This document shows, piece by piece, positions 22,065 through 63,270 of a stretch of DNA of 64,000 nucleotides. The DNA comes from an uncultured Asticcacaulis sp. (GTDB lineage: Bacteria > Pseudomonadota > Alphaproteobacteria > Caulobacterales > Caulobacteraceae): assembly GCA_936940865.1 (NCBI GenBank), contig CAKZJB010000051.1:62001-126000 (forward strand), given 5' to 3'. The notes beneath the pieces were generated by a model. That model ran no database searches. It was not told the DNA's origin and saw only the letters and a program-made list of their open reading frames with translations. Position numbers and translations under genes: made by a program. Within the stretch, counting starts at the first letter, position 1, and every line of letters starts with the position of its first letter.

Positions 22065-23258
22065 ATGACCGATATCGTATCCCGGCCCGCATCTGCAGGC
22101 CTTATTGCCCGCGTTCAGAATATCCTGCTCAAGCCGTCGCCAACCTGGGACGAAATCGCGACCGAACCATCAAGCATTCGGTCTGTCTATATGGGCTATG
22201 TCCTGCCGTTGGCCGCCATAGGTCCGGTGGCGGCGGCCGTCGGGAGCTCGGTTTTCGGCATCAACGCCTTCTTCGCGGTCTACCGCATGCCGGTCGTCTG
22301 GGCCGTCAGCCAGGCGATCGTCAGCTATGTCCTGACCCTCGTCCTCGTCTACATCCAGGCCCTGATCATCGATGCCCTGGCGCCCAGCTTCGGCGGCACG
22401 AAGGACCGGCTGGCCGCGTTCAAGGTTTCGGCCTATTCGTGGACGGCCGCCTGGGTCGCCGGTATCTTCGCTATCTTTCCATTACTGGGGATTCTCGGTC
22501 TTCTCGGCTTCTATAGCCTCTACCTCATGTATCGGGGGCTGCCGCGGCTGATGAAGGCGCCGGACGACAAGGCTATCGGCTATACGGCGGTGGTCGTCAT
22601 CATCTCGATCGTCATGGCCATGGTCGCCGGCGCGATTGCAGGCACGGTCGGCGGGATCGGCATGATGGGCGCGCATGGTCCCATGGCGACCGCATCCAGG
22701 GTGTCCGGAACCGCTGTCGTGCCGGGCGTCGGGTCGGTCGATCTGGGCAAGATGCAGGCGGCGACCGAACAGATGGCCGCGCAGGCGTCGGCCATGCATG
22801 ACGGCAAGACAACCGAAAAAGCCGCCGATCCGCAGGCCCTGCTGGCCCTGATGCCCGCGAGTTTCATGGGCGCGGCGCGCAGCGATACCTCGACCGATTC
22901 CGGCGGCGCCGGCGGCATGGCCGTGGCCAATGCCCAGGCCACCTATGCGGTGAACGGCGGCTCGGTTCGTCTCAAGATCACCGATATGGGCAGTATGAGC
23001 GGCTTCGGCGCCATGGCCCAGGCCATGAACGTCAATCACACCCAGACCACCGAAACCGGCTATGAAAAGGTCGAGTCGAAGGACGGCCGCATGATCAGCG
23101 AAAAATACGACAACCAGGCTAGGTCGGGCAGCTATTCCGTCCTGGCCGGATCGCGGATTTCGGTCGAGGCCGAAGGCAACGGCGTCGACATGGCGACGCT
23201 GAAAAACCTGGTCAATGCGATCGATATGAACCGGGCGCAGGCGCTGGTGGCGGGGTGA
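22065..23258 (+). CDS. Yip1-domain integral membrane protein
   Basis: N-terminal ARVQNILLKPSPTWDEIATEP and multiple TM segments typical of Yip1-domain proteins. Confidence 0.7.
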   Translation: MTDIVSRPASAGLIARVQNILLKPSPTWDEIATEPSSIRSVYMGYVLPLAAIGPVAAAVGSSVFGINAFFAVYRMPVVWAVSQAIVSYVLTLVLVYIQALIIDALAPSFGGTKDRLAAFKVSAYSWTAAWVAGIFAIFPLLGILGLLGFYSLYLMYRGLPRLMKAPDDKAIGYTAVVVIISIVMAMVAGAIAGTVGGIGMMGAHGPMATASRVSGTAVVPGVGSVDLGKMQAATEQMAAQASAMHDGKTTEKAADPQALLALMPASFMGAARSDTSTDSGGAGGMAVANAQATYAVNGGSVRLKITDMGSMSGFGAMAQAMNVNHTQTTETGYEKVESKDGRMISEKYDNQARSGSYSVLAGSRISVEAEGNGVDMATLKNLVNAIDMNRAQALVAG

Positions 23259-47227: not shown

Positions 47228-47425
47228 ATGACGACCAACACCACACATATCGCGGTGAAGTTTCGCGACGGCACCGAGCGCGCCTTCAGCAGCGCCGAGG
47301 GAGACCTGTCACTGACTACCTATGGGCCGTTCGTCACCATCATGACCGCGGACGAGCACGTTTACCTGCCACAGGAAGACGTGGCGATGATCGTCGCCAA
47401 GGCAACGGCGCGAGGCCGCTCATGA
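47228..47425 (+). CDS. Hypothetical phage protein
   Basis: 65-aa ORF overlapping the next start. Confidence 0.5.
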   Translation: MTTNTTHIAVKFRDGTERAFSSAEGDLSLTTYGPFVTIMTADEHVYLPQEDVAMIVAKATARGRS

Positions 47426-47961
47426 CCATCTCCGCCGAAACCCGCCTGAAACACGAGCGCGAGACGCTCGAAGCCATCCGGCGCATCAGCCACCGCGGTG
47501 AAAGGCCAAGTCTCAACAAGATCGCCGCCGAGCTGGGGATGTCGGGCAGCGGTGCCGTGCACTACCGGGTGCAGGCCCTGGTCGACCGGGGCTTGGTCTA
47601 TCGGACGGAACGACGGACGGTCGCACTCTCCGAAACCGGAGATACCGCTCGCTTTGTGGAACGTCTTGCGGCCTGCGGTGTTGCTCGCGCCGATGACTAC
47701 ACCGACTTGAACCGCGCGATGGCCGACCGCCTGCGCGCCATCCGCATCGATCGGAAGCTCACGGACTGCCAATTGGCGAAAGCACTAGGCATTCGCGTCA
47801 CGCGATATCGCCGCCTCGAATGGGGCGTGGACTGGATCAATGCCGTCCATATCGCGGTTCTCGCGCGCGTCCTGGCCGTCCCGGCCGACTACTTCACCGC
47901 CGATCGCCACGCCGGCGCGGCCCTGGCGAAGATTCTCGATCTCTCGGAGGAACTGACATGA
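47422..47961 (+). CDS. Two-HTH phage regulatory protein (winged-helix plus Cro/CI-like)
   Basis: SLNKIAAELGMSGSGAVHYRVQALVDRGLVYR and LTDCQLAKALGIRVTRYRRLEWG. Confidence 0.7.
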   Translation: MTISAETRLKHERETLEAIRRISHRGERPSLNKIAAELGMSGSGAVHYRVQALVDRGLVYRTERRTVALSETGDTARFVERLAACGVARADDYTDLNRAMADRLRAIRIDRKLTDCQLAKALGIRVTRYRRLEWGVDWINAVHIAVLARVLAVPADYFTADRHAGAALAKILDLSEELT

Positions 47962-48576: not shown

Positions 48577-48819
48577 ATGTCCAAGCCGGCCGCCCACGCA
48601 CCGACGCTTTTCGAACACGCCGACATCGTCGCGGCGCGTGAGGCGGCGCGTGAGGCGGTGCGTGCGGCGGAGGAAGGCCGCGACCTGGCCGAACGCAAGG
48701 TCAAATGCGCCCCGCACGGTACCCATAAGGCTCGGCTCCGGGCCTTTGCCGACGCCACCCATCAGCTGCTCCAGGCCGAAGGCCGGTTGAAGCGCTTGCT
48801 GCGGGAGAACGGGCAGTGA
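48577..48819 (+). CDS. Hypothetical phage protein
   Basis: 80-aa ORF between gemA and mor-like genes. Confidence 0.5.
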   Translation: MSKPAAHAPTLFEHADIVAAREAAREAVRAAEEGRDLAERKVKCAPHGTHKARLRAFADATHQLLQAEGRLKRLLRENGQ

Positions 48820-49181
48820 TCCAGGAAGAACGCCTGATCGACCAGGTCCGCGACGTGATCGGTGCCGACGCGATGACGGCGCTGCTGGCGAAGCTGGGCG
48901 GGCGTCGGCTGGTTATCCCCAAGAAAATGGGCGAGCATCATCCGATCAGTGACGCCATCGGCCACGATGCGGCGCTTCGCCTGGCCGAGGAACTGGCTGG
49001 CGCGACGCTGGATGTCCCGGTCACAGCCATGAAGCGCGCCCAAATCGCCGAGGCGCTGGCGCAGAATATGAAGCCCGACGAAATCGTCAGGCGCTATTTG
49101 TGCTCGCGCCGATTTGTGTTTAAGGTCCAGGCCGAGATGCGGGCCGGAGACGACGAGCCCAAGCAGATGGGGCTTTTCTGA
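48816..49181 (+). CDS. Mor/C-family transcriptional activator of middle/late phage genes
   Basis: LGGRRLVIPKKMGEHHPISDAIGHDAALRLAEELAGATLDVPV...KPDEIVRRYLCSRRFVFKVQAEM matches Mor/C architecture; position after gemA and before endolysin. Confidence 0.82.
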   Translation: MIQEERLIDQVRDVIGADAMTALLAKLGGRRLVIPKKMGEHHPISDAIGHDAALRLAEELAGATLDVPVTAMKRAQIAEALAQNMKPDEIVRRYLCSRRFVFKVQAEMRAGDDEPKQMGLF

Positions 49182-49183
49182 GG

Positions 49184-49208
49184 GGTGCACCGGTGCACCA
49201 TAGATAGC
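49184..49208 (+). promoter_or_regulatory. Candidate late-promoter control element, copy 1 (Plys position)
   Basis: GGTGCACCGGTGCACCATAGATAGC, identical to copy 2 at 62153; includes a perfect 16-bp palindrome. Confidence 0.75.
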
Positions 49209-49236
49209 ACCTGATGCTGCGCCCATTGTGCCCCTT

Positions 49237-49872
49237 ATGGCACAGGGGCAAAATCCTTTCGACACTCCGCAATATGCGGCCGGCAGCCGGTTTGAAACGG
49301 TAGCCAAGCACGTCCTCGGCATAGAGGGCGGCTTCAGCGACAATGCGTCAGACCGTGGCGGCACGACCAATCACGGCATTTCGCTTCGTTTCCTCAGGGC
49401 CGAGGGCAAGTTCGACCTCGATCACAACGGACATCCGGACCTCGATCTCGATTTCGACGGCGATCTGGACGGCCACGACATCCGCCTCCTGACAGCGCAG
49501 CAATCCCTTAATCTGTTCTACCTGTGCTTCTGGCATCGCTTCGATCTCGACCGCCTGCCGGTGCCGATCGACGGCGCGGTCTTTGACCAGGCCGTCAACG
49601 GCGGCGCCGTCGCCGCGGTCAAGATGCTTCAGCGCGCCCTTAATCGCCTGGCGGTGGCCTCCGGTGACTTGAAGGTCGACGGTGTCCTGGGCAACCAGAC
49701 GATCGGCCGGGTCTTCACGGCCGGGCGTGTCCGGCAGGGCTATGGCTCGCTGGTCATGGCGTACCGGCAGGAAGCCGAGGCCCGTTACAACGCCATCGTT
49801 CGCGCCGACAGTAGCCAGGTGGTGAACCTGGCAGGCTGGGTCGCCCGCGCCCGGAGGCTTGGCGATGTGTGA
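49237..49872 (+). CDS. Endolysin, GH108-type with peptidoglycan-binding-like C-terminus
   Basis: GIEGGFSDNASDRGGTTNHGISL catalytic region; VDGVLGNQTIGRVFT. GTG 49228 is an alternative start. Confidence 0.9.
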   Translation: MAQGQNPFDTPQYAAGSRFETVAKHVLGIEGGFSDNASDRGGTTNHGISLRFLRAEGKFDLDHNGHPDLDLDFDGDLDGHDIRLLTAQQSLNLFYLCFWHRFDLDRLPVPIDGAVFDQAVNGGAVAAVKMLQRALNRLAVASGDLKVDGVLGNQTIGRVFTAGRVRQGYGSLVMAYRQEAEARYNAIVRADSSQVVNLAGWVARARRLGDV

Positions 49873-50101
49873 TCCGCAGAACAGCCTTGAAAGCCGTGTC
49901 GCCCGCTGGACGCGCCCCTACCTGGTCTTCGTGATCGGGTTCATCCTCCTGGTCCACTACGGCATCCTGTCGATGGCGGAGGCCTTCCTGCACGTCACCT
50001 ATACCCACCTGACGGCGGTCGAGCTGGGCATCAGCGTGGCGCCGGCCATGTACTACATCTTCCAGCGCACCTTTGAGAAGGTGAAGGGGCTGGCATCGTG
50101 A
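49865..50101 (+). CDS. Small membrane protein, holin candidate
   Basis: TM segment YLVFVIGFILLVHYGILSMA immediately downstream of endolysin. Confidence 0.65.
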   Translation: MCDPQNSLESRVARWTRPYLVFVIGFILLVHYGILSMAEAFLHVTYTHLTAVELGISVAPAMYYIFQRTFEKVKGLAS

Positions 50102-50607
50102 GCGGCTTCAGCAGCATCCCCCTCTTCATCGCGATTGTCGCCGCGGCCGCCGGCGTCGGCGGCGTGTTCGCCGCCGTCAAGGAACACGACCAGGTCGTCG
50201 CGCAGCAAACCCAGATCGACCGCCAGGCGCAGTGTGTCATAGCGCTGGGGACGAGGGATGGCCGGGCCGTATCCCACGAATGCGACCCGGCCATCATCCT
50301 CTATTTTAACGGCGCGCAAGCCGCGTCGACCTGCGACCAGGCCCTGGTCATGGGCGGCGTGGTACCGGAATGCTCGCCTGTCGTCGCCCAGCTGCAGGGC
50401 GCCAACGTCCTTCTCAAATCCCAACTGTCCGCCACGGTCGTCGATCGTGACGCCGCCATTGCCCGCGCCGAAAAGCGCGCGGCCGACCTCAATCAAAGGA
50501 AAGCCCAAGATGCCGCTGCGCTCGCTCATGCGCCTCGCCAGCCTGACGGTCTCGTTGTTTGCGACACTCACTGCCTGCGCGCCCGCTTCGAAGCCCCTGG
50601 ACCTTAA
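50098..50607 (+). CDS. Rz-like inner-membrane spanin candidate
   Basis: N-terminal TM then hydrophilic coiled region ADLNQRKAQDAAALAHAPR; contains the nested Rz1 ORF. Confidence 0.65.
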   Translation: MSGFSSIPLFIAIVAAAAGVGGVFAAVKEHDQVVAQQTQIDRQAQCVIALGTRDGRAVSHECDPAIILYFNGAQAASTCDQALVMGGVVPECSPVVAQLQGANVLLKSQLSATVVDRDAAIARAEKRAADLNQRKAQDAAALAHAPRQPDGLVVCDTHCLRARFEAPGP

Positions 50608-50818
50608 GGGGCCGGCGCCGGCCGTCGTCACGCGCACCGAAACGGTGACGGCTTGTCCGGCCGAGCTGAAGGCCGATCCCGGCCGCCCGCCGGCCGTGCC
50701 CGACGGTGCGGTCATCCAGGCGAACGACGCCGGCCAGGGCTGGCTTTCGGCGCTCTACGAGTATGCCAACGGCTTAAGCCGACGTTTCACCGACGCGCAG
50801 AAGGCGTGCCCCAAATGA
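50510..50818 (+). CDS. Rz1-like outer-membrane lipoprotein spanin, nested in another frame of Rz
   Basis: MPLRSLMRLASLTVSLFATLTACAPASKPLDLKGPAPAVV: signal peptide with LTAC lipobox, Pro-rich; SD AAAGGA. Confidence 0.75.
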   Translation: MPLRSLMRLASLTVSLFATLTACAPASKPLDLKGPAPAVVTRTETVTACPAELKADPGRPPAVPDGAVIQANDAGQGWLSALYEYANGLSRRFTDAQKACPK

Positions 50819-51042
50819 CCGACTTCATGGACCGGGCGCAGGCGCTGGAGCAGCGGCTGCGCGACCAAGCCCTGACCGTCACGACCGAAGGCCTGGCACT
50901 GCCGGGCCTGACCGTTTGCGAGGACTGCGGCTTCCCCATCAGTGCGGCGCGCCTTGAGGCGCTCCCCTCGGCCCGGCGTTGCGTGCCGTGTCAGGACCAA
51001 GCGGAGCGTCTTGCCCGCGGTTATCTCGGAAAGGGCGCGTAA
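50815..51042 (+). CDS. TraR/DksA-type C4 zinc-finger protein
   Basis: VCEDCGFPISAARLEALPSARRCVPCQDQAER. Confidence 0.9.
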   Translation: MTDFMDRAQALEQRLRDQALTVTTEGLALPGLTVCEDCGFPISAARLEALPSARRCVPCQDQAERLARGYLGKGA

Positions 51043-51407
51043 TGAACCAGCTGCCATTGATCTTCCTCGTCGCTTCCTTGTTGGTTTCGACGATCGCGCT
51101 GGCCTTCTCCGCAGCGACGTTTTACCGCGCCGGGCGCTGGAAGGATTCCGAGGAAGGTAAGGAACTGGAGCGCCGTCTGAGCGCCGCTGAAAAGTGGGAG
51201 CGATCGCCGGCGGCCGTGGCCCTGATCGAGCTTGTCAACGAACACTCGGAACGACTGGCCGCTGGAGAAGAGCGCTTCGAAAATCTGGCGACGAAGTCCG
51301 ATGTCGCCGGCGTCCAAGCCGAGGTGCGAGGCCTGGAGAAGGCCTTGGACCGCGTCGATGCCGGCGTTGTCCGTATCGAAAAAATCTTGATGGAGCACAA
51401 CCGGTGA
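51042..51407 (+). CDS. DUF2730 (Mu gp25-like) protein
   Basis: N-terminal TM then coiled coil; position between TraR and gp26-like genes. Confidence 0.78.
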   Translation: MNQLPLIFLVASLLVSTIALAFSAATFYRAGRWKDSEEGKELERRLSAAEKWERSPAAVALIELVNEHSERLAAGEERFENLATKSDVAGVQAEVRGLEKALDRVDAGVVRIEKILMEHNR

Positions 51408-51715
51408 CCGCCCTTTCCGATGCGATCGACCACGATCTGCGCCTTGCCATCCTGCAACTGCTGTCCGACCAGGTCGGCTACCAGGCCAACAGCCGCGTCC
51501 TTCACAGCGGCGTTCAAGCCCTGCGCTTCCGCGTGAGCCTGGACAAGGTCATTACCGAGATCGACTGGCTGGCAGAGCAGCGCCTTGTCGAATCCGAGGA
51601 CATCGGGAGCGGTGTCATTCTGGCGATCGCAACCCAGCGCGGCCGCGACGCAGCCGCCGGCCTGATCGCCGTGCGCGGCGTCGCGCAACCCGATCCTCTT
51701 GCCAAGAAGGGCTGA
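51404..51715 (+). CDS. Mu gp26-like winged-helix protein
   Basis: LRLAILQLLSDQVGYQANSRVLHSGVQALRFRVSLDKVITEIDWLAEQRLV; GTG start overlapping gp25. Confidence 0.75.
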   Translation: MTALSDAIDHDLRLAILQLLSDQVGYQANSRVLHSGVQALRFRVSLDKVITEIDWLAEQRLVESEDIGSGVILAIATQRGRDAAAGLIAVRGVAQPDPLAKKG

Positions 51716-51716
51716 C

Positions 51717-52298
51717 ATGGCCCGCTACCGTCCCTCCAGCATCGACAAGCTTCCTCCGGCGATCAAGGAAACGATCGGCCGATTGATTGCGTCCAACTTC
51801 ACCCTGGACCAGATCATAGCGCACCTCCGCGACATGGAGGCGACGGTTGAGGAGGATTTCGATACGCCGTCGAGATCCGCGGTCGGCCGTTACGCCGAGC
51901 GGCTGAGAGCGGCTCAACAGAAGATGTCTCAGGGCCGGGCGATCGCGGAGGCCCTTGTTCCGCAGCTGGGCGAAAATCCCGTTACCCAGGTCGGCCGTGT
52001 CGCCAGTGAACTGCTCCAGGGCGTAGTGTTCGACCTGCTGACGGCGGTGGAAACTGACGAGGAAACGGGCCAGGCGAAACCCGTCCAAATAGACCCGAAG
52101 ACCGCCGGCGTCCTGGCTGGTGTGCTCCGAGACGTTGCCGCCGCTCAGAAGACTGACTCCGACCGCATGGCCAAGGAGCGGGAGCAGTATGCCAAGGAGG
52201 CGGCAAAGGCTGTCCAAAAGGTGGCCAAGGCCAAGGGGCTGACGCAGGAAACTGCCGACGAAATCGCCTTTGCCGTTCTGGGGATCGCCAAGCAATGA
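51717..52298 (+). CDS. DUF3486 (Mu gp27-like, small terminase-associated)
   Basis: RYRPSSIDKLPPAIKETIGRLIASNFTLDQIIAHL. Confidence 0.88.
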   Translation: MARYRPSSIDKLPPAIKETIGRLIASNFTLDQIIAHLRDMEATVEEDFDTPSRSAVGRYAERLRAAQQKMSQGRAIAEALVPQLGENPVTQVGRVASELLQGVVFDLLTAVETDEETGQAKPVQIDPKTAGVLAGVLRDVAAAQKTDSDRMAKEREQYAKEAAKAVQKVAKAKGLTQETADEIAFAVLGIAKQ

Positions 52299-53818
52299 AG
52301 CTGCGCCCCAAAACTGCGGATGAGGAGTTCGAAGAAGCGCTGGCCGCAATGCCGGCCGATGACCGGACGGTCTTCGTCAAGTCGAAGCCCGAGCTGGCGC
52401 CGGCCTTGGCCAGGTTGCCGCGCGGCAACCTGCTGCTGCCCTATCAGCAAAAGGCCATCATGGCGGCCAAGGACAACAACGTCCTGGTCGTCGAGAAGTC
52501 ACGCCGTATTGGCTTGACCTGGGGGCTGGGCTCGCATGCCGCTCTGACGGCCGCGAAGACGCGCAGCGCCGGCGGCATGGACGTCTTCTACATGGGCTAT
52601 GAGAAGGAGATGGCCCGCGAATTCATCGACGTCTGCGGCATGTGGGCCAAGGCTTTCGGTGTAGCGGCCGGAGAAGCGGAAGAGTTCGTTCTGGACGACG
52701 ACACGAACCCGGAAAAGAGCATCAAGGCGTTCCGCATTCAGTTCGCGTCCGGCTTCGAAATCGTCGCCCTGCCGTCCAAGCCGCGCGCCTTCCGGGGCAA
52801 GCAGGGCATGGTCATCATGGACGAGGCCGCCTTCATGGACGATGTCCAGGAGGCGATCGACGCTGCCATGGCGTTGCTGATGTGGGGCGGCAGCATCATC
52901 ATCGTCTCGACACACTTCGGCGTCGATAATCCGTTCAATACCTTGATCAACGAGATCCGATCGGGCGAACGCGCCGGCGCCGTCATGACGATCACGTTTA
53001 ACGACGCGATCGCGGATGGGCTTTATGAGCGCGTCGCCCTGGTGGCGCCGAAGGCCATCCTGCCAAAAGAGCAGTGGATTGCCGACATCCGCAAGAAGTA
53101 CGGCGCGGCCGCCGCCCAGGAATTGGACTGCATCCCCTCGATCGGGGGCAATCCGTGGATCGATCCGGCGCACCTTACGGCTTGCTCACACCCGGATGCG
53201 GGAAAGCCAGAGCTGTATCAGAAGGGGCCGGCCTTCCATGGCTATGACGTGGCTCGCCGGCGCGACGGCATCATTCAATGGACCTTCGAAGAAGTCGGCG
53301 GAATCCTGTGGCTTAGGGAAAAGTGGGAGGCGGTCAACGAGACCTTCCGCGTCCAGCGCGAGCACTTCGACTATGTCATGAAGACCTATCGTGTCCTCGG
53401 CGCCGGCATCGATCAGACCGGCATGGGCGAAGTCCAGACCGAGCTGCTCCAGGACAAGTATGGTGCCGTGGTCGAAGGTTTCATCCTGTCGGCGCCGACG
53501 CGCCTGGTCCTGGCAACCATGCTGCGCGAGCGCTTTGAGGAAGGCACAATCCGCATCGATTGCAGCGCAGAGACGCGCACGGACCTTCTCGCGCTTAAGC
53601 GGGCCGGACCGAAGGGCAAGGCCCTGGTCGAAAACAAGGTTCACCCCGACCGCTTTTGGGCGGCCGCCCTCGCGGTCGCCAAGGCTGCTGGCGTGCGCAT
53701 CGAATACGCCTACGAGGCGGTCGGCAACCGGAGCCACGATGCTGACGAGGACGAACGCTTCAGGCAGTCCGATAGCGGCTCCACCCGAAACGGAATGTCG
53801 CGCGGAGGCGCATGGTAA
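52295..53818 (+). CDS. Terminase large subunit (Mu gp28-like)
   Basis: VVEKSRRIGLTWGL Walker A-like, MVIMDEAAFMDD Walker B, IDQTGMGEVQTELLQDKYG nuclease region. Confidence 0.92.
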   Translation: MKLRPKTADEEFEEALAAMPADDRTVFVKSKPELAPALARLPRGNLLLPYQQKAIMAAKDNNVLVVEKSRRIGLTWGLGSHAALTAAKTRSAGGMDVFYMGYEKEMAREFIDVCGMWAKAFGVAAGEAEEFVLDDDTNPEKSIKAFRIQFASGFEIVALPSKPRAFRGKQGMVIMDEAAFMDDVQEAIDAAMALLMWGGSIIIVSTHFGVDNPFNTLINEIRSGERAGAVMTITFNDAIADGLYERVALVAPKAILPKEQWIADIRKKYGAAAAQELDCIPSIGGNPWIDPAHLTACSHPDAGKPELYQKGPAFHGYDVARRRDGIIQWTFEEVGGILWLREKWEAVNETFRVQREHFDYVMKTYRVLGAGIDQTGMGEVQTELLQDKYGAVVEGFILSAPTRLVLATMLRERFEEGTIRIDCSAETRTDLLALKRAGPKGKALVENKVHPDRFWAAALAVAKAAGVRIEYAYEAVGNRSHDADEDERFRQSDSGSTRNGMSRGGAW

Positions 53819-55500
53819 TGGTAAAGCGCGCTTCATCCCTCATTGACCCCTCGACCGGTAAGCCGATCGTCTACGACGATCTCACGCGCGAGATCGCCGG
53901 TCCGACCATGGGCGGCGTCCGTTCCATCCTTTCCGGCCATCCGGCCCAGGGCCTCGATCCGGCGCGCCTGGCGCGGATCCTGCGATCGGCCGAGGAGGGT
54001 AATGCCGAGGATCAGTTCGCCCTGGCCGAGGAGATCGAGGAGAAGTACCTCCATTACCAAGGCACGCTCGGCACCCGCAAACGCGCGGTATCGCAGCTGG
54101 AGATCACGGTTGAAGCGGGCAGCGATGCGCCCGACGACCAGGACCGCGCCCAGTTCATCCGCGACTGGCTGGCTCGGGATACGCTCGAGGAAGAACTGTT
54201 CGACATCCTGGACGCAGTCGGAAAGGGTGTGTCGTTCACCGAGGTAGCGTGGGACCTGTCCGGAAACTACTGGCTGCCGGCGCGCCTGGAGAACAGGGAC
54301 GGCCGCTGGTTCGAGTTCGACCGGATCGACGGCAAAACGCCACGGCTCAGGGGCGGGCCTGACGGCATGTCAGGCACGCCGACCGATCTGCCGCCCTTCC
54401 GCTTCATCGTCCACCATCACCCGGCCAAGACGGGCCTGCCTTTACGCGGCGGCCTGATCCGCGGCGTCGCCTGGGCATACCTGTTCCAAAACTTCGCCGT
54501 GAAGGATTGGGTCATCTTCGCCGAAGTGTACGGCATGCCGGTTCGTCTCGGTCGCTATGGCCCGAACGCGACGGCCGATGAGAAGCGGATCCTGCTGCGG
54601 GCTGTGACCAATCTTGCGACCGATGCGGCCGCCATCATTCCCGACTCGATGAAGGTCGAGTTCGCCGAGGCCCAGGCCTCTGGTAATTACGAAGTCTATG
54701 AGCGCCTCTGCCAGTACCTGGATCAACAGGTCTCGAAAGCGGTGCTCGGCCAGACGGCGACGACCGATGCCGTCGCCGGCGGCCTGGGTGGAAGCCAGGG
54801 CAACGTGCACAACGACGTGCGTGAGGACATCCAGCGGGCCGACGCGAAGAAGCTGGCGGCTACGCTGAACACCGGCCTTGTCCGATGGATGATCGACTTC
54901 AACTTCGGGGCGCCGGCGTCTGGTCGCTATCCTCGCATCAACATCGGCCAGTCCGAGAAGTTCGGCAAGGAGGAGATGGCCCTGGTCGAGACCTTCGTCG
55001 CGCTCGGCGGTCGGGTCGAAGAGTCGGTCATCCGCGATAAGCTGGCCCTGCCCGATCCTCCGGAAACGGGGGCCGATGGTCAGCCCGTGCGCCTCCTCAA
55101 GGCGAAGGTTTCGGCCGCGCAAAATCCGGCGCCCGCTGACACCATTCCCCCGATCGCTGCCCCTGGTGTCGCGGTTGCCGCGTCTTCGGCCTCAGTGGCG
55201 GGCTTAGAGGGGCTTATGAGGGGCTTAAAGATCGGGGCGGCCTCGTCCCTGGCGGCGGCATCGACGATGGACGCGATCGACGCCGCGGTGGCCGATATGG
55301 CCGACCAGTGGCAGCCCGTCACGGTGCCGATGTTCGACCCGCTACAAAAGGCGTTCGATGCGTCGGCATCCTACGAAGACCTGAAGGTACGCCTGCTGGC
55401 GGCCCTCGACAAGATGGACGTGCGCGCGATGGCCGAACTGCTGGCCGAGGCGACGTTCATGGCGCGCCTGGCAGGGGAGAGCGGAAATGCCCTCCAATAG
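53812..55500 (+). CDS. Portal protein, DUF935 (Mu gp29-like)
   Basis: RGLIRGVAWAYLFQNFAVKDWVIFAEVYGMPVRLGRYGPNATADEKRILLRAV. Confidence 0.93.
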   Translation: MVMVKRASSLIDPSTGKPIVYDDLTREIAGPTMGGVRSILSGHPAQGLDPARLARILRSAEEGNAEDQFALAEEIEEKYLHYQGTLGTRKRAVSQLEITVEAGSDAPDDQDRAQFIRDWLARDTLEEELFDILDAVGKGVSFTEVAWDLSGNYWLPARLENRDGRWFEFDRIDGKTPRLRGGPDGMSGTPTDLPPFRFIVHHHPAKTGLPLRGGLIRGVAWAYLFQNFAVKDWVIFAEVYGMPVRLGRYGPNATADEKRILLRAVTNLATDAAAIIPDSMKVEFAEAQASGNYEVYERLCQYLDQQVSKAVLGQTATTDAVAGGLGGSQGNVHNDVREDIQRADAKKLAATLNTGLVRWMIDFNFGAPASGRYPRINIGQSEKFGKEEMALVETFVALGGRVEESVIRDKLALPDPPETGADGQPVRLLKAKVSAAQNPAPADTIPPIAAPGVAVAASSASVAGLEGLMRGLKIGAASSLAAASTMDAIDAAVADMADQWQPVTVPMFDPLQKAFDASASYEDLKVRLLAALDKMDVRAMAELLAEATFMARLAGESGNALQ

Positions 55501-55999
55501 TGGAACCTTTGCCGAGCTGTTCGCTTTCAGCCGCGATCGCGCGGCGCCTTTCGTTGATGGCAATGGCAATGCGGAGACGGCGGCGATCGACGTACCGCGC
55601 CTGGATCATGACGAAGCCGGCATCGTCAAAGGGCTGCTAATCGAGGGCCGGCCGCAAACCCTGCAGGCCGATGTGGTGGTATTGCAGGCTAATCTGCCCG
55701 GTGCGCCGGTCCAGGGCACCGTGCTTCACGACTACATCGATGCCGGCGGCGATCGCTGGCAACGCGCCATCTACACACGATCCCCTCGCGCCACGGTCGA
55801 AGGATGCTTGGCCTTGAAGGGATGGCATCGGCGTATCGGCTTCTTTCCCGCGTTCCTGCCCCGATCGGAAGACCATGGTCCTACTCGGCCGGTCCGATAC
55901 GAAGGCGAGTCCTGGGAGATGTGCGCCTTTGTCGTCGATGTTGACGGCCAGGCGATCGACATCGGCGACGTGTTTCACTCCATTCTGATAGAGGCATAG
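55487..55999 (+). CDS. Phage spike/fiber-like protein
   Basis: FAELFAFSRDRAAPFVDGNGNAETAAIDVPRLDHDEAGIVKGLLIEGR resembles the recurrent phage spike motif FTFTRASTATYVDADG...PRFDYDP...GLLIEE. Confidence 0.65.
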   Translation: MPSNSGTFAELFAFSRDRAAPFVDGNGNAETAAIDVPRLDHDEAGIVKGLLIEGRPQTLQADVVVLQANLPGAPVQGTVLHDYIDAGGDRWQRAIYTRSPRATVEGCLALKGWHRRIGFFPAFLPRSEDHGPTRPVRYEGESWEMCAFVVDVDGQAIDIGDVFHSILIEA

Positions 56000-58486
56000 A
56001 TGGCCGATCCGGACATCATCACAAAGACCCCGGCGCAGCTCGGCCAGATCACCGGCCTTCAGGACGGCGACCGCATCATCGTCATGCGCGACGGCGTGCC
56101 GCTGACCACGATCGACGCCCAGGTCCTGATTACGGCTGTCAACCAGGGCTTGGCCGACGGCATTGCCGCAATCGTGGGCACCACGGGTTTGACGATCGAC
56201 GAACTTCGGGTCGCGATCCAGAGCGCCGCTGCCGATGCCGAAGCGGCCGCAGCTTCCGTCGCCGGCGTCGCGAATATGGGGCTGTTCAAATCGATCCCGC
56301 TTCTCAGCGGTTATGACGCCGGTGGCATCCAGTCGATCGGCCAGGGCGACCTTGTGGTATCGACCGGGCTGACGCAGGCCAGCATTGTCTGGAATATCGA
56401 TAACGTCCAGGTCGGAGACAAGGTCACCCTGGAACTGTGTGTCGCACCGACTGAAAACGTCGTGGCCTATCTGGCCGATGGCAACTCGGCGCCGAAGGGA
56501 CCTTCGGTCGCCCTTGCGGAAGATTCCGTCTATCACGTCGTCACTCTCCAGGCGACCACAGGCATAGCCTCCCGACTGGTCCTGTTGCAAAACCCTGCGG
56601 TTCCTGGTCATCACTTCACCTTCTGGGCCAGCGGCGTCGTCGGAGACCAGGCCGCGACCGGCCTTCAGCAGAATAAGCTGCTGACCGCGCAACTGGCTCG
56701 CATGCGGGTGCTCCAGGCGGCTTTCGCTGGCGTCGAGACAGCCAGGTCGGCATTGAGCGCGCGGACGGAAGGCTTGGGCGGCATCACGGGCCAGCCGACA
56801 TCGACCAGCTACACCAACTTCACGGTCACCGACACCGGCAAGGTATCGGGAACCGCGCCCGCGGCCGCCGGCCAGGTGGCCGTGCGCTGGCCCATGAAGA
56901 TGGCGCTGGGCGAAAAGAAGACCGTGCTCTATGCCTTCACCCGGACAGGCGCAACGCTGCAGATGTTCCTGGACCATGGCGACGGCACATCGGCGACGGT
57001 CGGCGGCGCCAAGAACATGGTCGCGGATGGGAAGTTCCATCCTCAAGTGCTCGAAGCCAGCGATACGGTCCAGTACCTGGACGTCATGCAGACGACAGGC
57101 GTGCTGAGCACAATGAGCGGCCGGTTGTTGACGATCGACGGTGACATTACCGCCCTTCTGCCCAAGAATGCGCTACATGCCTTCCTGGCCATGCTGACCA
57201 GCATGTTCGCCGACAACGCCGCCCAGACGGATAGTCGCCTTAACCTGGCCGAAGCGCGGATCGCCGGCTTGATGGACAGCATGGGCGCGACAGGGCGTTT
57301 CTCGGCCGTCGGCGCCCGCAACTTCTTCCCGCGCGCGTGGACGACCACGCCCAACGCGCACAGCGTCACCCGAACGGTCCGCAATGGGACCGGCGACGCC
57401 AATAATGTCAGGGTGTTCATCGCCAACAGCATTTTGGCGACGGCCGGCGACATCCTGGCGCAGTTGCCGAACGCCAACGGCATCCGGGGCCACTATACGA
57501 TCGAGTATCCGATCGGCACGGCGCCCGTGCCGCTGAAGCGAAACGGAAGTGCCGACATCTGGTTCAAGCGCAGCGAGCTTGGCGGCTGGATCTTCCCCGA
57601 TCCCGGAGCCCTGAGCATCCCGGGTGGTGCGCTCTACAAGCGCCATGTCAGGTTCTATCCTGTCGATGACGCCGGCAATCTCCTGGCTGGCGGCACCTTG
57701 CCTTGCTCGCAATTCGCCGTCAGTACGGACCACTACAACGTCAATTCAACGGTCGACCGCACTTCGACTATCGGCGGCGAGACGGCGGCCTTCGCCGGCG
57801 GCCAGGATCTGTTCGACGGCGCCGTCGTGGCGTGCGACGAAAAAGCCTATCCGACCATCGTCGTACCGACCGACTCGCAAGGCTATGGCTTCGCGGAAAA
57901 TCTCTCCGGTACCGGCGACGCCGATGGCAATACGGGGCCGTGGGGACGCTGGTATGGCAAATACCACATGGACGCGGTCATCTTCGGCCTGCCCAGCTCC
58001 ACGCTCTCGCAATGGGCACTGTCCCTGTCCGGCCGGCTTCTGCCTTCGGTCGGCCAGTTGCTGGCCTGCATGGGACGCCACTACCAGGTTAGCCTGGGGC
58101 GCAACAGCCTGGGCGCCGGTGCGACCGCCGCCCAGATGTTGGCCCAGCTCGACTGCATCGAGGCGTATCTGATCGCCACCGGCCGCACCGGTCGATGCGC
58201 GACTGTCACGCCCCATCCGACCGCCACCACGGACAACTGGGCCAGCTTCGATCATATGACGGCTGAAACCGGCGCGATCCAGGCAGAGCGCGTTTCGTTC
58301 AACACAGCCGCGATCAGCCGCGGCGCTGTCGATTTCGGCGGACTGCTCGAAGATCCGGCGCACCCCGGATGCTGCGTCACCAACGGTGCGGCGTTCGGCT
58401 TCATGCAGGACGGCACCCACTACAACGCCGGCGGCCATGCGCTCTTTGCCAATACCGCCCCAGATCCCACTCAACTGTACACTTAG
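56000..58486 (+). CDS. Large spike/fiber-like protein with C-terminal SGNH-hydrolase-like domain
   Basis: VVPTDSQGYG (block I-like), DGTHYNAGGH (block V-like); coiled N-terminal half. Confidence 0.68.
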   Translation: MADPDIITKTPAQLGQITGLQDGDRIIVMRDGVPLTTIDAQVLITAVNQGLADGIAAIVGTTGLTIDELRVAIQSAAADAEAAAASVAGVANMGLFKSIPLLSGYDAGGIQSIGQGDLVVSTGLTQASIVWNIDNVQVGDKVTLELCVAPTENVVAYLADGNSAPKGPSVALAEDSVYHVVTLQATTGIASRLVLLQNPAVPGHHFTFWASGVVGDQAATGLQQNKLLTAQLARMRVLQAAFAGVETARSALSARTEGLGGITGQPTSTSYTNFTVTDTGKVSGTAPAAAGQVAVRWPMKMALGEKKTVLYAFTRTGATLQMFLDHGDGTSATVGGAKNMVADGKFHPQVLEASDTVQYLDVMQTTGVLSTMSGRLLTIDGDITALLPKNALHAFLAMLTSMFADNAAQTDSRLNLAEARIAGLMDSMGATGRFSAVGARNFFPRAWTTTPNAHSVTRTVRNGTGDANNVRVFIANSILATAGDILAQLPNANGIRGHYTIEYPIGTAPVPLKRNGSADIWFKRSELGGWIFPDPGALSIPGGALYKRHVRFYPVDDAGNLLAGGTLPCSQFAVSTDHYNVNSTVDRTSTIGGETAAFAGGQDLFDGAVVACDEKAYPTIVVPTDSQGYGFAENLSGTGDADGNTGPWGRWYGKYHMDAVIFGLPSSTLSQWALSLSGRLLPSVGQLLACMGRHYQVSLGRNSLGAGATAAQMLAQLDCIEAYLIATGRTGRCATVTPHPTATTDNWASFDHMTAETGAIQAERVSFNTAAISRGAVDFGGLLEDPAHPGCCVTNGAAFGFMQDGTHYNAGGHALFANTAPDPTQLYT

Positions 58487-58494
58487 AGGACTTG

Positions 58495-58992
58495 ATGCTT
58501 ACCTATCTCTTCAATTTCCTCGGCCTTCAGCCCACCGGGAATGGTCCGCAAAAGCGGATGTTCCTGGCTGGAGCCAACGAGGTCGTGGAAGGTGTCGTCG
58601 TCGTCGGCGACGACGGCAATCCGCTCGTTCGCGGCTCGACCGGCCACGACTATACGGCCAATCCGCCAGCAATCCCGAATATCGGCCAGAACTTCGCCAA
58701 CGCTGGGCCGTTTGCCAATTACGTCCTGGTCGCCACCGTAGCCGCCAACCCGTCGCGGGTCTCAATCGACATCGAGAACATGACCGGCGCACAGATTGCC
58801 GTGGTCCGTGATGACGGCACGGCAGCCAACAACGCCGCGCCGGTTGCAGCCTCGGTGTTCGCCCTGGCCGGCGGCGCGGCCGCGGGGCAGCAGGGCGGCA
58901 GCTGGTCGTCGACCACCTTCCGCGGCCGTCTGCAAATCTTTGCGCCTGCGGCCTTGGCCGGCAGCGCTTTCGTCTCGATCATGGAGGACTAA
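58495..58992 (+). CDS. Hypothetical virion-associated protein
   Basis: ATG 58495, Ala/Gly-rich beta-type sequence, between two SGNH-like genes. Confidence 0.6.
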   Translation: MLTYLFNFLGLQPTGNGPQKRMFLAGANEVVEGVVVVGDDGNPLVRGSTGHDYTANPPAIPNIGQNFANAGPFANYVLVATVAANPSRVSIDIENMTGAQIAVVRDDGTAANNAAPVAASVFALAGGAAAGQQGGSWSSTTFRGRLQIFAPAALAGSAFVSIMED

Positions 58993-58993
58993 G

Positions 58994-60352
58994 TTGAAAT
59001 CGTTTCTTGCCCGTCTTCTGCTGGCCGTAACGCTGATTGTCAGCGTCGCCATCGGCGATTCAGCCCTTGCGGGCGGCTCCGGCACATCGGCGCCTCCGCT
59101 GTCGTCGGCGACCATTAAGGCCGCCGGCGGCCTCCTGTTCCGCGACCCGCGCAACCTTCGCTACCCGGTGTCATGCCGCAACGGCTTGATGACGGGCACC
59201 AACGCCAGTTATTCGCAATATGCGATGTCCAACCGGCGCATAAAGCGCAATGGAAAGGTCGCGGTTACCGACCTGCAGGCAGCGATCGGCAACTGGTACG
59301 TCAACAGCGCCTATGCCGTGACGAACGGTCCCAACCGGATCAAGGTCAATTACTCGATCCAGTATCCCCGATCGGGCGGCAAGCAATATCCCTTCTACGT
59401 TAATGGAAGTCGGGACATCTACATCGAGCCAGGCCAGACCGTCCGGGCTGTGGAGCCCACCGGCCTTGTCATCCCCCAATTCGCCAACTTCTACGTCCTG
59501 GAATACGTCACCGCGGTGGACTCGGCCGGCAACCAACTGACCTCCGGCACGTTCCCGTCCGGCCGGTTTACTATCGGGGTCAGCGGCGGCGTGGAAAAAC
59601 AGGCGTTCAACGCCGCTGCCACGGACAAGACGCTGACCCAGGATGGCGAGACGACCGCCATCGTCACCCAGTATAACCTTTTCGATGCGCTCTTGCTGAG
59701 CGGCAAACCGCTATACAGCAATGTTTCAGCTCCAAGCTACGTCCTTGCGGGCGACAGCATTATGTTCGGCCGCCGCGAGGAAGACGCCACCAGCTCGGAT
59801 TCCGACGGCAACGTCGGTCCCATGGAGCGGGCCGTTTGTGCTTCAGGGAACGCCTATGGCGCCATCAATCTTGGCGTCAGCGGCACCAAAGCCAGCGATT
59901 TCAAGGCCATCACGACGGGCAGCAACACCCAGATCGTCGATCTTCTTCGCGATGTCGGGACTCATGTGATCGACGAGTTCGCGGTCAACGATCTTTCGGG
60001 ATCGGCGACGGCGGCACAGCTCGAGTCGGACCAAAACACGATTGGCGACTGGTTCCGAAACACCATGGGCATCCGGCCGATCCTGACCACGGCAACGCCG
60101 GTTGCCTCGAGTATCAGCGTCACCAACTCGGTCTACAACCCGAAGCGCGTGACTTACAATGCGTGGGTTCGTTCGCGATCCTATTCGTCCTCCTTTGTGT
60201 CGTACATCGAACTGTCTGACGTGTACGAGACGGTTAGGGATAGCGGTCTCTGGGGATCTTCGTCCTGGACGACCGACTTTATCCATCCGAACGCGACGTC
60301 AAACGCGCTCGTCCCGACCGCTGTCGGTGACGTTGGACAATACGCGCAGTAA
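58994..60352 (+). CDS. SGNH/GDSL hydrolase with N-terminal signal peptide, TTG start
   Basis: MKSFLARLLLAVTLIVSVAIGDSALAGG; GDSIMFG, NLGVSGTKASDF, EFAVNDL, DFIHPNA blocks; GGAGG upstream. Confidence 0.72.
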   Translation: MKSFLARLLLAVTLIVSVAIGDSALAGGSGTSAPPLSSATIKAAGGLLFRDPRNLRYPVSCRNGLMTGTNASYSQYAMSNRRIKRNGKVAVTDLQAAIGNWYVNSAYAVTNGPNRIKVNYSIQYPRSGGKQYPFYVNGSRDIYIEPGQTVRAVEPTGLVIPQFANFYVLEYVTAVDSAGNQLTSGTFPSGRFTIGVSGGVEKQAFNAAATDKTLTQDGETTAIVTQYNLFDALLLSGKPLYSNVSAPSYVLAGDSIMFGRREEDATSSDSDGNVGPMERAVCASGNAYGAINLGVSGTKASDFKAITTGSNTQIVDLLRDVGTHVIDEFAVNDLSGSATAAQLESDQNTIGDWFRNTMGIRPILTTATPVASSISVTNSVYNPKRVTYNAWVRSRSYSSSFVSYIELSDVYETVRDSGLWGSSSWTTDFIHPNATSNALVPTAVGDVGQYAQ

Positions 60353-62140
60353 ATGCCTGTCAGCCTTCAGCCCCTTAAGCCGAAAGACGCGCTTGCCTAC
60401 TTCCGGCAGAAGGGGCTGAGGACCAGCTTTGCCTATCAGGACGTCTGGCAGGACGAGCATGCCAAGGCCTTCACCGTCGCCAAGGCGATGTCGATGGATG
60501 TCCTGATGGACATTCGCGACGCGCTCGATTCGGCCATGGCGGACGGCAAGACCTTCGAGCAGTTCAAAAAGGAGCTGGCGCCGATCCTCCAGGCCAAGGG
60601 CTGGTGGGGCAAGAAGGAGATGCTTGATCCGCTCACCGGCGAAAAGAAGCTGGTCCAGCTGGGCTCCGATCGGCGCCTAAGGGTCATCTTCAATACCAAT
60701 ATGCGGACGGCCTATAACGTCGGTAACTGGCAACGCAGCTGGGCCACGCGCGCCAGTTTCCCCTATCTCATCTACCACCACGCGGACGGCGAGAAGTTTC
60801 CGCGTCCCGAGCATGTAGCCTGGGACGGCGTCTGTCTGCCGATCGAGCACCCGTTCTGGAAGACGCATTATCCGCAGTGCGCCTGGGGCTGTAAGTGTTC
60901 GACGGAATCCGTCTCGAAGCAGATGCTGGTCGACCGTAAGCTGTCGGTCACTAAGGAAGCCGATATAGCGCGCTTCCCCATGAAGGAATACGTGAATCCC
61001 AGGACCGGGGAGGTCAGCCAGGTTGAGCAGGGCATCGACCCCGCCTGGAACTACAACCCCGGCCAGTCGCCGCTGAAGGGTCTGACGCCACGGCCGGCGC
61101 CGCCGACGCCGGGTGCGCCGCCGCTGGCCGTGCCGCCTCAGCCGCCCACGGATCTCGCCAAGCCATCGGCTACGCCGGCGCCGGCAGCCAAGCCGGCCGA
61201 GACGGCGGCGCCGGCGGCCGAGGTTCAACCTGCGGCCAAGCCGATCGAGACCGCGGTCGAAGGTTTCCTTCAGGTCTTCGATGCCGCTGCCCAGGACAAA
61301 ATAGTCACCGACCGGACGGGCTGGCCCTTGCCGATCGGGCGCGACCTCTTCACCACCACGGACGGCCGGCTGCGGTCGCCGCAATCCGCTCTCGTGCCGT
61401 GGCTGCCTGTGGTGGGACGGGCGTTGAAGGAATACGACCAGGTCGCATGGCACTGGCGCCCGCCGGCGGTGCCGAGCTTTCAGCCGGCCGAGATCCGCGC
61501 GGTCCTGGATGACGCGCAGAAGGGCGTTGACTCACGCCTGGTGGCGCGCTTTGGCAAGGTCCAGGACTGGCTGGTCAAGGTCGCCAAGGATCATGGCCAG
61601 GCGCTCCAGGACTTCGATTATTCGCTGCCGGCGTCCGAGGCGCGGCATATCCTGCTGCGCCACGGTGACGCCGTCGTGGAGGCGGAGCGCAAGCAGGTGG
61701 CTGTGACCCCGGCCGACATCGAGGCGCTGCCTGACCTGGTGGCCAAGGCGAGCCATGTCATCTTCGGCCGCGTGACTAACAAGGGACTGCCGGCCGTCAT
61801 CTTCATCACGCCGAAAGCGGACCTGGTCTATCTGATTGTGATGGAGGTTCGCGCGCGGCGTTGGCAACTGGCAGCGAAGACGATGCGAAAATACCCCGCC
61901 ATAGCCGATGTCAACCGAGCGATCGGTTCCGTCGGCCCCAACGTGCTAAACGATGGCGGGGCTAATGACGGTATAGTCGATATCGCCGCGCTCGGCAAGG
62001 CAGCGACCAAGCTTCCCCGCGACGAGCTGGTCAGGCGCTACAGCAAGCGGCTTGACAAGTTCCTGATCACCGTCGATTTTGCCCGCGACACATGGACCTA
62101 TGATGTCCAGCCCGCTAAGCCGCCCTTAAAGCGGCCTTAA
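60353..62140 (+). CDS. MuF/gp30-like head morphogenesis protein with Pro/Ala-rich linker and C-terminal nuclease-like extension
   Basis: MRTAYNVGNWQRSWATRASFPYLIYHHADGEKFPRPEHVAWDG...HYPQCAWGCKCS MuF core; linker 61080-61260; C-terminal ARHILLRHG and SHVIFGRVTNKGLPAVIFITPKADLVYLIVMEV. Confidence 0.88.
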   Translation: MPVSLQPLKPKDALAYFRQKGLRTSFAYQDVWQDEHAKAFTVAKAMSMDVLMDIRDALDSAMADGKTFEQFKKELAPILQAKGWWGKKEMLDPLTGEKKLVQLGSDRRLRVIFNTNMRTAYNVGNWQRSWATRASFPYLIYHHADGEKFPRPEHVAWDGVCLPIEHPFWKTHYPQCAWGCKCSTESVSKQMLVDRKLSVTKEADIARFPMKEYVNPRTGEVSQVEQGIDPAWNYNPGQSPLKGLTPRPAPPTPGAPPLAVPPQPPTDLAKPSATPAPAAKPAETAAPAAEVQPAAKPIETAVEGFLQVFDAAAQDKIVTDRTGWPLPIGRDLFTTTDGRLRSPQSALVPWLPVVGRALKEYDQVAWHWRPPAVPSFQPAEIRAVLDDAQKGVDSRLVARFGKVQDWLVKVAKDHGQALQDFDYSLPASEARHILLRHGDAVVEAERKQVAVTPADIEALPDLVAKASHVIFGRVTNKGLPAVIFITPKADLVYLIVMEVRARRWQLAAKTMRKYPAIADVNRAIGSVGPNVLNDGGANDGIVDIAALGKAATKLPRDELVRRYSKRLDKFLITVDFARDTWTYDVQPAKPPLKRP

Positions 62141-62152
62141 GCCCGGCCCGAT

Positions 62153-62177
62153 GGTGCACCGGTGCACCATAGATAGC
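62153..62177 (+). promoter_or_regulatory. Candidate late-promoter control element, copy 2 (PI position)
   Basis: GGTGCACCGGTGCACCATAGATAGC; palindrome extends to 20 bp here (ATGGTGCACCGGTGCACCAT). Confidence 0.75.
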
Positions 62178-62196
62178 CTTCGTCACCCCCCGTAAC

Positions 62197-63270
62197 TTGG
62201 CCCCACTCGCAACTGAGCTAGGGGCTTTGACCGTCGTGCCTAAGGGGGCTTCCCGTGAAGATCTGATCGTTTGTGCTTCGGCCGTCCCTGTGGCGGCCGA
62301 AAACGGTCAACCGCTGACGCGCATCCGGCTTCTTCCCGCCGGCGCGGTCAAGCTGAAGGACAGCCGCGGCCCCTACCAATGCGATCCGAGGACTGTCGTC
62401 GCGGCGGCGAAAGCTTACTGGGGCGGCGAGGAAATGCCGCTCGATTACGACCACCAGACCATGGCGACCGCCATGAAGGGCGGCCAGGGCGGCGTAGCGC
62501 CCGCCTCGGCCTGGGTAAAGCCCGCCAATCTGACGGCTGAAGCTGACGGCGTTTACGCGAACGACATCGAATGGACGGCCGCGGCGGCCGCCGCGATCCA
62601 AGCCAAAGAATACAAGTATTTCAGTCCGCTCTTCGCGGTCTCGAAAACGGGCCAGGTCACCGGTCTATTCGGTGGCAGCCTGACCAACGACCCGGCGATC
62701 GGCGGCTTGACTTCCGTCGCCGCGTCCCGCTTCCACCCAAAACAGGAACCCGAAATGGACCTCGCTGCAATTGCGGCTGCGGTCGGCCTTGCCGCGACAG
62801 CGACCGAGGCCGAAATCATCGCCGCCGCCTCGGCGCAGGCAAGCCAACTGGCTCAGCTGCGCACCACCCTCGGCGCGAAGGACGGCGACACATTCGAAAC
62901 CGTCGTCGCGGCCGCCGCCAAGAAAGTCGCCGGCGCCGGCGATGTCATCGTGCCGGCCTCGGCCTGGCAGGACGCGCAAACGCGCCTCGCCGCCCTGGAA
63001 GGCGACAAGGCCGTCGCGGCCGTCGATCAGGCCATCAAGGATGGCAAGATCGTCCCGGCGAGCCGGCAGCCCATGGTCGACTGGGCTCGGCGCGACCTCC
63101 CCAAGTTCCAGGAATATCTCGCCACGGCTCCGGTCATCGTCGGGGCGGGCTCGGTGACCTCCGGCCAAGCGCCGGAGGGCTCGGCCGAGTCCAAGCTGAC
63201 GGCCGATGAGCTGGTCGCCGCCTCGGCGCTCGGCATGACGGCCGAACAGTATCTGGCCGGAAAGGAGTGA
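62197..63270 (+). CDS. Mu I-like prohead protease, with probable internal scaffold start at 62755
   Basis: GAVKLKDSRGPYQCDP, EEMPLDYDHQTM, EYKYFSPLFAVSKTGQVTGLFGGSLTNDPAIGGL; TTG or a slightly downstream start. Confidence 0.88.
   Translation: MAPLATELGALTVVPKGASREDLIVCASAVPVAAENGQPLTRIRLLPAGAVKLKDSRGPYQCDPRTVVAAAKAYWGGEEMPLDYDHQTMATAMKGGQGGVAPASAWVKPANLTAEADGVYANDIEWTAAAAAAIQAKEYKYFSPLFAVSKTGQVTGLFGGSLTNDPAIGGLTSVAASRFHPKQEPEMDLAAIAAAVGLAATATEAEIIAAASAQASQLAQLRTTLGAKDGDTFETVVAAAAKKVAGAGDVIVPASAWQDAQTRLAALEGDKAVAAVDQAIKDGKIVPASRQPMVDWARRDLPKFQEYLATAPVIVGAGSVTSGQAPEGSAESKLTADELVAASALGMTAEQYLAGKE

Follow-up and report, generated by a model that had tools for sequence, protein, structure and literature searches.

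The window, by which we refer to the whole 64-kb stretch of DNA analyzed, carries genes of a Mu-like prophage of an Asticcacaulis bacterium, including a gene for a Mor/C-like protein followed by an endolysin gene and, further downstream, a gene for a MuF-like minor head protein followed by the protease I gene (Table 1). Two other features of these genes were recorded. The 179-aa protein encoded upstream of the Mor-like gene (47422–47961) has a LexA/MarR-like winged helix-turn-helix (HTH) followed by HTH_3, and the MuF-like protein (60353–62140) has a C-terminal PBECR3 domain (Barnase/EndoU/ColicinE5-D/RelE-like nuclease; PF18812, 1.5e-11); a match to PBECR2 is weak.

Table 1. Genes and putative promoter elements at the two sites (window positions; operators and promoter boxes are inferred)
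Feature	Position	Strand	Remarks
Mor/C-like gene, putative late activator, 121 aa, GTG start	48816..49181	+	PF08765, PHROG 836
Codons 97-103 (S R R F V F K), predicted start of recognition helix	49104..49124	+	Residues 97, 98, 99, 102 and 103 covary with operator bases
Putative Plys operator, perfect 16-bp palindrome GGTGCACCGGTGCACC	49184..49199	.	Dyad center 49191.5; near-conserved in close relative; matched-pair test
Weak −35-like TAGATA of Plys	49201..49206	+	17 bp before −10 box; ATAGATAGC kept in both copies and relative
Inferred −10 box CATTGT of Plys	49224..49229	+	+33 to +38 from dyad center; CATTGT also in Plys of three relatives
GH108 endolysin gene	49237..49872	+	PF05838, 1.9e-17; ATG 7 nt past −10 box
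MuF-like minor head protein gene, last before PI site	60353..62140	+	PF04233, 1.9e-15
Putative PI operator, identical 16-bp palindrome	62153..62168	.	Dyad center 62160.5; identical in viral contig 3300003323_001445
Weak −35-like TAGATA of PI	62170..62175	+	Read from sequence
Inferred −10 box TAACTT of PI	62193..62198	+	+33 spacing; TAACTT also in PI of two relatives
Mu-like protease I gene	62227..63270	+	PF10123, 2.9e-56 on 62197-63270 frame

The 25-bp sequence GGTGCACCGGTGCACCATAGATAGC is present on the + strand at exactly 49184–49208 and 62153–62177, in agreement with the identity of the two copies reported in the initial annotation of this DNA. Their likeness in position to the Mu late promoters Plys and PI also held, with the Mor-like and endolysin genes flanking the first copy and the genes for the MuF-like protein and protease I flanking the second. 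By simple counting, which gives a rough estimate only, ~2e-6 exact 25-bp repeats are expected within 64 kb. The elements had been described as a tandem pair, a description that we replace: the first 16 bp are one self-complementary inverted repeat (GGTGCACC followed by GGTGCACC, the same on both strands), which is followed by the −35-like ATAGATAGC. In the 5.07-Mb host genome, the 16-mer occurs without mismatch only at these two sites, and one site with two mismatches is located elsewhere, on another contig. The sequence flanking the 25 bp is unrelated between the two copies, and they are therefore not part of a duplicated segment. A third copy upstream of the tail module, suggested as the equivalent of Mu PP, was not found in the window or in the next 19 kb of the contig (25-mer scan with up to 8 mismatches, which gave only the two known sites and their reverse-strand matches), and no counterpart of the PP and Pmom sites of a Mu-type late promoter was identified in the assembled prophage.

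The Mor-like protein scores 25.9 bits against the Mor family PF08765, above the curated cutoff of 24.9, and matches the late transcriptional activator family PHROG 836 at 7e-18; PF08765 is matched by 43 of 48 family members (E ≤ 0.001). The family profile matched Mu C (9l0x, 6.3e-5) and Mu Mor (1rr7, 2.9e-4) in the PDB, with similarity spanning the HTH and the C-terminal tail, and hhalign aligned it to Mu C with a probability of 94%. An AlphaFold model of the Mor-like protein has helices at residues 87–94 and 98–112 (pLDDT about 90 across residues 81–110), of which helix 98–112 is predicted to be the recognition helix of a C-terminal HTH. Using the monomer model in a Foldseek search of the PDB, Mu Mor and C were not recovered, and no match at E ≤ 0.001 was obtained. 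In the whole genome, we identified only one Mor/C-like match (E ≤ 0.001) and thus no separate Mor and C proteins of a two-step cascade, which supports the suggestion that a single activator may drive the late genes. Elsewhere in our collection, one prophage fragment (L099 in G806:C177) has tandem Mor-like genes (783–1214 and 1160–1798), a candidate Mor and C pair or a duplication, and L190 and L162 have two Mor-like matches each.

The proposed search of other viral sequences recovered the element from one close relative, while the remaining contigs with GGTGCACCGGTGCACC have unrelated flanks and lack ATAGATAGC. In that relative, viral contig 3300003323_001445, Mor is 88% identical, the PI element is identical, and the Plys element has one change, which is located at the dyad center (GGTGCACCcGTGCACCATAGATAGC). 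The extended 24-mer is absent from the contigs of the other genomes searched. In the unrelated viral contigs L013, L027, L023, and L025, GGTGCACCGGTGCACC is located within longer inverted repeats or beside GAGCTCATGAGC-type repeats. In the close relative 3300003323_001445 (L035, 8811–9087), an extra reading frame lies between mor and the Plys element, and the operator still precedes the lysin gene; thus, the element goes with the lysis gene and not with the end of mor.

Prophages whose Mors are 35–49% identical have a different palindrome, yet the two places again carry a matched pair: ACTGACACCTGTCAGG is present at both the Plys and PI positions in G007, CGGAAATAGTTCCG in G012, and GCTGAAGGATTTCAGC in G045b, while G022 has CCTGAACCTGTTCAGG paired with ACCGAACGTGTTCAGG. 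In G045a (Mor 39% identical), no clear operator was identified. A palindrome scan of whole segments was swamped by GC-rich chance matches, and we therefore searched only the Plys and PI regions, using mispaired combinations as controls. With terminase as bait, we obtained 160 loci, which together with the earlier loci gave 93 non-redundant Mu-like phages with Mor and MuF and Mors <95% identical. For each phage, the best palindromic 16-mer pair common to the region after Mor (region A) and the region after MuF (region B) was determined; in the mispaired control, region A of one phage was combined with region B of another whose Mor was <60% identical. A pair score of ≥28 was reached by 35 of the 93 cognate pairs versus 2.2% of the mispaired ones, and a score of ≥30 by 15 of the 93 versus 0.13%. 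The further palindromes among these phages include CCCGACATCTGTCGGG, TATCCGCCTGCGGATA, GGTGGACCTGTCCACC, CCTCAACCAGTTGAGG, CCGGGACATGTCCCGA, and GGCCCCGCGCGGGGCC. The initial annotation considered that the element may represent a new recognition code, and this turned out to be correct in a stronger sense, i.e., most phage lineages have their own palindrome.

For the covariation analysis below, we used a final set of 45 phages with a shared-palindrome score of ≥26, from which nine pairs had been dropped by eye as coding DNA or unconvincing, a matter of judgement. The remaining 48 of the 93 phages failed this filter, i.e., about half had no clear pair by this method. Extra operator copies were not found in the 45 phages over the stretches examined. 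The sample is biased, as phages were recruited via Mor or terminase similarity. Eight loci (L138 to L141, L143, L144, L146, and L151) are from a single Rhodobacteraceae MAG, CATOSB01, and hold almost identical Mu-like phages on several contigs, which suggests many insertions of one phage.

Adenine at the second and thymine at the sixth position are the two key bases of a −10 hexamer. Among 68 strict sites, 56% have both in the hexamer starting at +33 from the dyad center versus an expected 3.5%, and at every other offset tested (9 to 53) the fraction is ≤10%. In a looser set, only 46 of 90 sites have the two bases. By hand count, 35 bp separate the dyad center from the center of the −10-like hexamer at each of the two sites in G007, G012, G045b, G022, and the window. 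Over the 68 sites, a weak T/A/G/A bias is present at +10 to +13, where a −35 element with a 17-bp spacer would fall. If the −10 box corresponds to −12 to −7, the dyad center is inferred to lie at about −44.5; the start sites are unmapped. At 50 of the 90 sites, an ATG opening a frame of at least 60 codons is located 5–8 nt past the −10 hexamer. Because this is where a sigma-70 start would fall, leaderless late mRNAs are predicted, and judged by this spacing, many late mRNAs in these phages look leaderless, including that of the window endolysin (ATG 49237, hexamer 49224–49229). For protease I, the likely start codon is TTG 62227 or GTG 62236, behind AGGGG (62220–62224), so that the PI mRNA would have a leader.

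To relate operators to activators, we computed mutual information for all pairs of an operator half-site position and a Mor column across the 45 phages, with the 409 columns of the terminase TerL controlling for shared descent. Numbered as in the window protein, the highest-scoring Mor residues for positions 2 to 7 were R98 (z 8.3 versus a TerL maximum of 5.6), F102 (11.2 versus 7.5), R99 (8.0 versus 3.6), S97 (8.2 versus 5.1), K103 (13.1 versus 10.3), and again K103 (7.2 versus 4.3), respectively; for position 1, covariation in the 45 phages was not above the TerL control. These z values overstate significance, as the sequences are related, and the TerL control and the use of low-identity subsets correct for this only partly. 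Independently of any choice of residues, window 96–105 of Mor was the best 10-residue predictor of the operator among Mors <45% identical, with 1.57 mismatches in 6 positions versus 2.95 for random (lowest of 200 permutations, 2.26). TerL similarity did not predict the operator at that distance.

The resulting code is as follows. R98 occurs with G2 in 8 of 8 cases and any other residue with C2 in 36 of 37. At residue 102, Y, F, W, or H occurs with T3 (29 of 30), Q with C, R with G, and E with C or G. R99 goes with G4 (31/32) and A99 with C4 (5/5), T or H at residue 97 with A5 (24/24) and R97 with C5 (4/4), and R103 with C6 (17/17) and K103 with A6 and C7 (11/12 each). Within the 27 Mors that are <45% identical, the Fisher P values are 1e-6 for R98-G2, 2e-6 for aromatic 102-T3, and 1e-6 for R103-C6. 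The Mor-like protein of the window (S97, R98, R99, F102, and K103) agrees with its own half-site, GGTGCAC. Based on these alignments, residues 97, 98, 99, 102, and 103 of the activator appear to largely predict the operator bases used by each virus. A leave-one-out score of 0.61 for the five recognition residues is optimistic because the residues were picked from the same data.

Of five phage isolates not used in deriving the code, three fit it, each at most positions. Alteromonadaceae phage B23 (recognition residues T E R W E) has CCTGAAGGGCTTCAGG and CCTGAACTCCTTCAGG, with TAATCT and TAGTCT as −10 hexamers at +33; RcapMu (S Q R R R) has CCGGACCTGTGTCCGG twice; and ThpS-P1 (T D V S K) has CCAACTTGTTGCGC and CCAACTAGTTGCGC. 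In the Rhodobacteraceae isolates RhkS_P1 and PeaS_P1, the predicted palindrome pair was not found at the Plys and PI gaps. Both gaps of these two phages (L276 and L277) contain a poorly palindromic element, about CCCCGAAACTGCATCCCCGGG, perhaps another type of operator. For the 48 phages outside the code set as a group, the regions of a phage agree better with the prediction from its true Mor than with predictions from permuted Mors (mean z 0.73, versus at most 0.35 in 5,000 permutations), and single cases are often ambiguous. The RcapMu palindromes (L279, gaps 13946–14016 and 22172–22438) look like terminators (CCCCCGGAC..GTCCGGGGGTTTTG, then TTTTG) and yet fit the code; they could possibly have a dual role.

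We considered whether the palindrome could instead be the operator of another regulator, i.e., a phage repressor, the two-HTH protein encoded at 47422–47961, or a host factor, that represses late transcription in lysogens. A perfect palindrome would be typical of a repressor, and the window encodes at least one further HTH protein. However, bases 2–7 covary with the recognition helix of the Mor-like protein above all 409 terminase columns, the code derived from Mor carries over to left-out phages, and the palindrome directly precedes the −35-like element, with its center near −44.5, a position of the activator type; we therefore regard regulation by such a protein as very improbable. We attach still less weight to the possibility that the elements are chance repeats of an intrinsic terminator or an RNA hairpin at the end of a gene. 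They are self-complementary and intergenic, and TTTTG follows the RcapMu counterparts, but neither window copy is followed by a T-run, and, lacking a loop, a palindrome of this kind cannot form a fully paired hairpin. Moreover, a terminator has no place for a fixed −10 hexamer at +33, a spacing to the ATG, or covariation between residues and bases. The least probable possibility, in our view, is that the repeat serves recombination, a transposase, or packaging or arose by recent duplication. Identical copies at a distance of 13 kb in a transposable phage would be in keeping with this, but their flanks are unrelated outside the 25 bp, and many related phages have quite different palindromes at the same two positions and with the same promoter geometry.

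By contrast with these alternatives, the proposal of the initial annotation that the elements are late-promoter operators of a Mor/C-like activator is supported by computational evidence of four kinds: the palindrome pairs of relatives, the fixed −10 spacing, the covariation between operator and recognition helix, and the transfer of the code to left-out phages. We consider it highly likely that the two elements are the operators of Plys and PI, each bound by the Mor/C-like protein as the one activator for both, with binding, activation, and start sites being inferred. The Mor-like protein very probably reads the 16-bp palindrome, because the latter covaries with the recognition helix and because the code fits the window as well as left-out and held-out phages; binding, footprint, or RNA data are not available. 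In the mechanism that we propose, a dimer of the Mor/C-like protein would, upon induction, bind the palindrome GGTGCACCGGTGCACC with one recognition helix per half-site. It would be positioned just upstream of the weak −35 TAGATA and the non-consensus −10 (CATTGT or TAACTT), with the dyad center near −44.5, and would aid the host sigma-70 RNA polymerase in starting transcription, as Mu Mor and C do. Transcription from Plys would cover the lysis, terminase, portal, and MuF genes and transcription from PI the protease, capsid, and tail genes, with one activator serving both promoters; each phage lineage would read its own palindrome via residues 97, 98, 99, 102, and 103. Dimerization, operon extents, and timing are inferences as well.

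In Mu, C is active at lys, I, P, and mom, and Plys and PI have an identical 10-bp stretch in common (PMC4461284). The Mor dimer binds a 16-bp element of Pm that is centered at −43.5, in place of a −35 element (PMC4287176; PMC4390567), and acts at the middle promoter and not at the late ones (PMC4287176). The window sites match the layout of Mu-type late promoters, with a 16-bp dyad by the −35 and a −10 box at +33 (start sites unmapped). As in Mu, the activator gene is located just upstream of the lysis genes, the sites precede lysis and protease I, the protein belongs to the same family, and the −10 and −35 elements are non-consensus. Unlike the four C-dependent late promoters of Mu, those of the window phage number two, and each has as its operator a perfect 16-bp palindrome whose sequence is not that of Mu. 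When the gaps upstream of the Mu lysis and I genes were scanned for palindromes, no clear dyad or comparable operator palindrome was found. Compared with Pm, the likeness is a 16-bp dyad upstream of the −10, centered at −43.5 in Mu and at about −44.5 in the window phage, i.e., ~1 bp apart, and the difference is that the window phage keeps the weak −35-like TAGATA. In contrast to Mu Mor, the single Mor/C-like protein of the window is predicted to act directly on late promoters. In the Rhodobacter transposable phage RcapMu (NC_016165), similarly, the C-like gene RcapMu27 is located upstream of the endolysin gene, and identical palindromes are present at the Plys and PI gaps; however, the record has no promoters annotated there, the palindromes (CCGGACCTGTGTCCGG) are terminator-like, and a −10 at +33 is not clear.

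Specificity has likewise been inferred from residue-base covariation for MerR-type HTH proteins (PMC5045206). In the open literature searched, a similar analysis of the Mor/C family was not found, nor was an earlier readable recognition code for it. Mor/C activators have, to our knowledge, been characterized essentially in Mu, and the sites known to us are imperfect. With the proviso that binding and start sites are unproven, the late-promoter system described here is a variant of the Mu Mor/C system for which no earlier description is known. We think it likely, although with less certainty than for the two window sites, that transposable phages of Alphaproteobacteria and at least one gammaproteobacterial phage have a private, paired late operator per lineage with invariant geometry, a near-deterministic code of five residues, and many leaderless late mRNAs.

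Some 45 sets of an activator and its naturally matched operators, with two sites of fixed spacing per set, provide a testable recognition code for a family of HTH activators. They indicate that late-gene specificity diverges fast between related phages. The code predicts which co-resident Mu-like prophages could cross-activate one another, permits sequence-based annotation of late promoters, and provides small activator-promoter pairs that are orthogonal and could be used in the laboratory. If the proposal is true, transposable phages would represent a natural experiment in regulator specificity, in which operators are predictable from the protein sequence.
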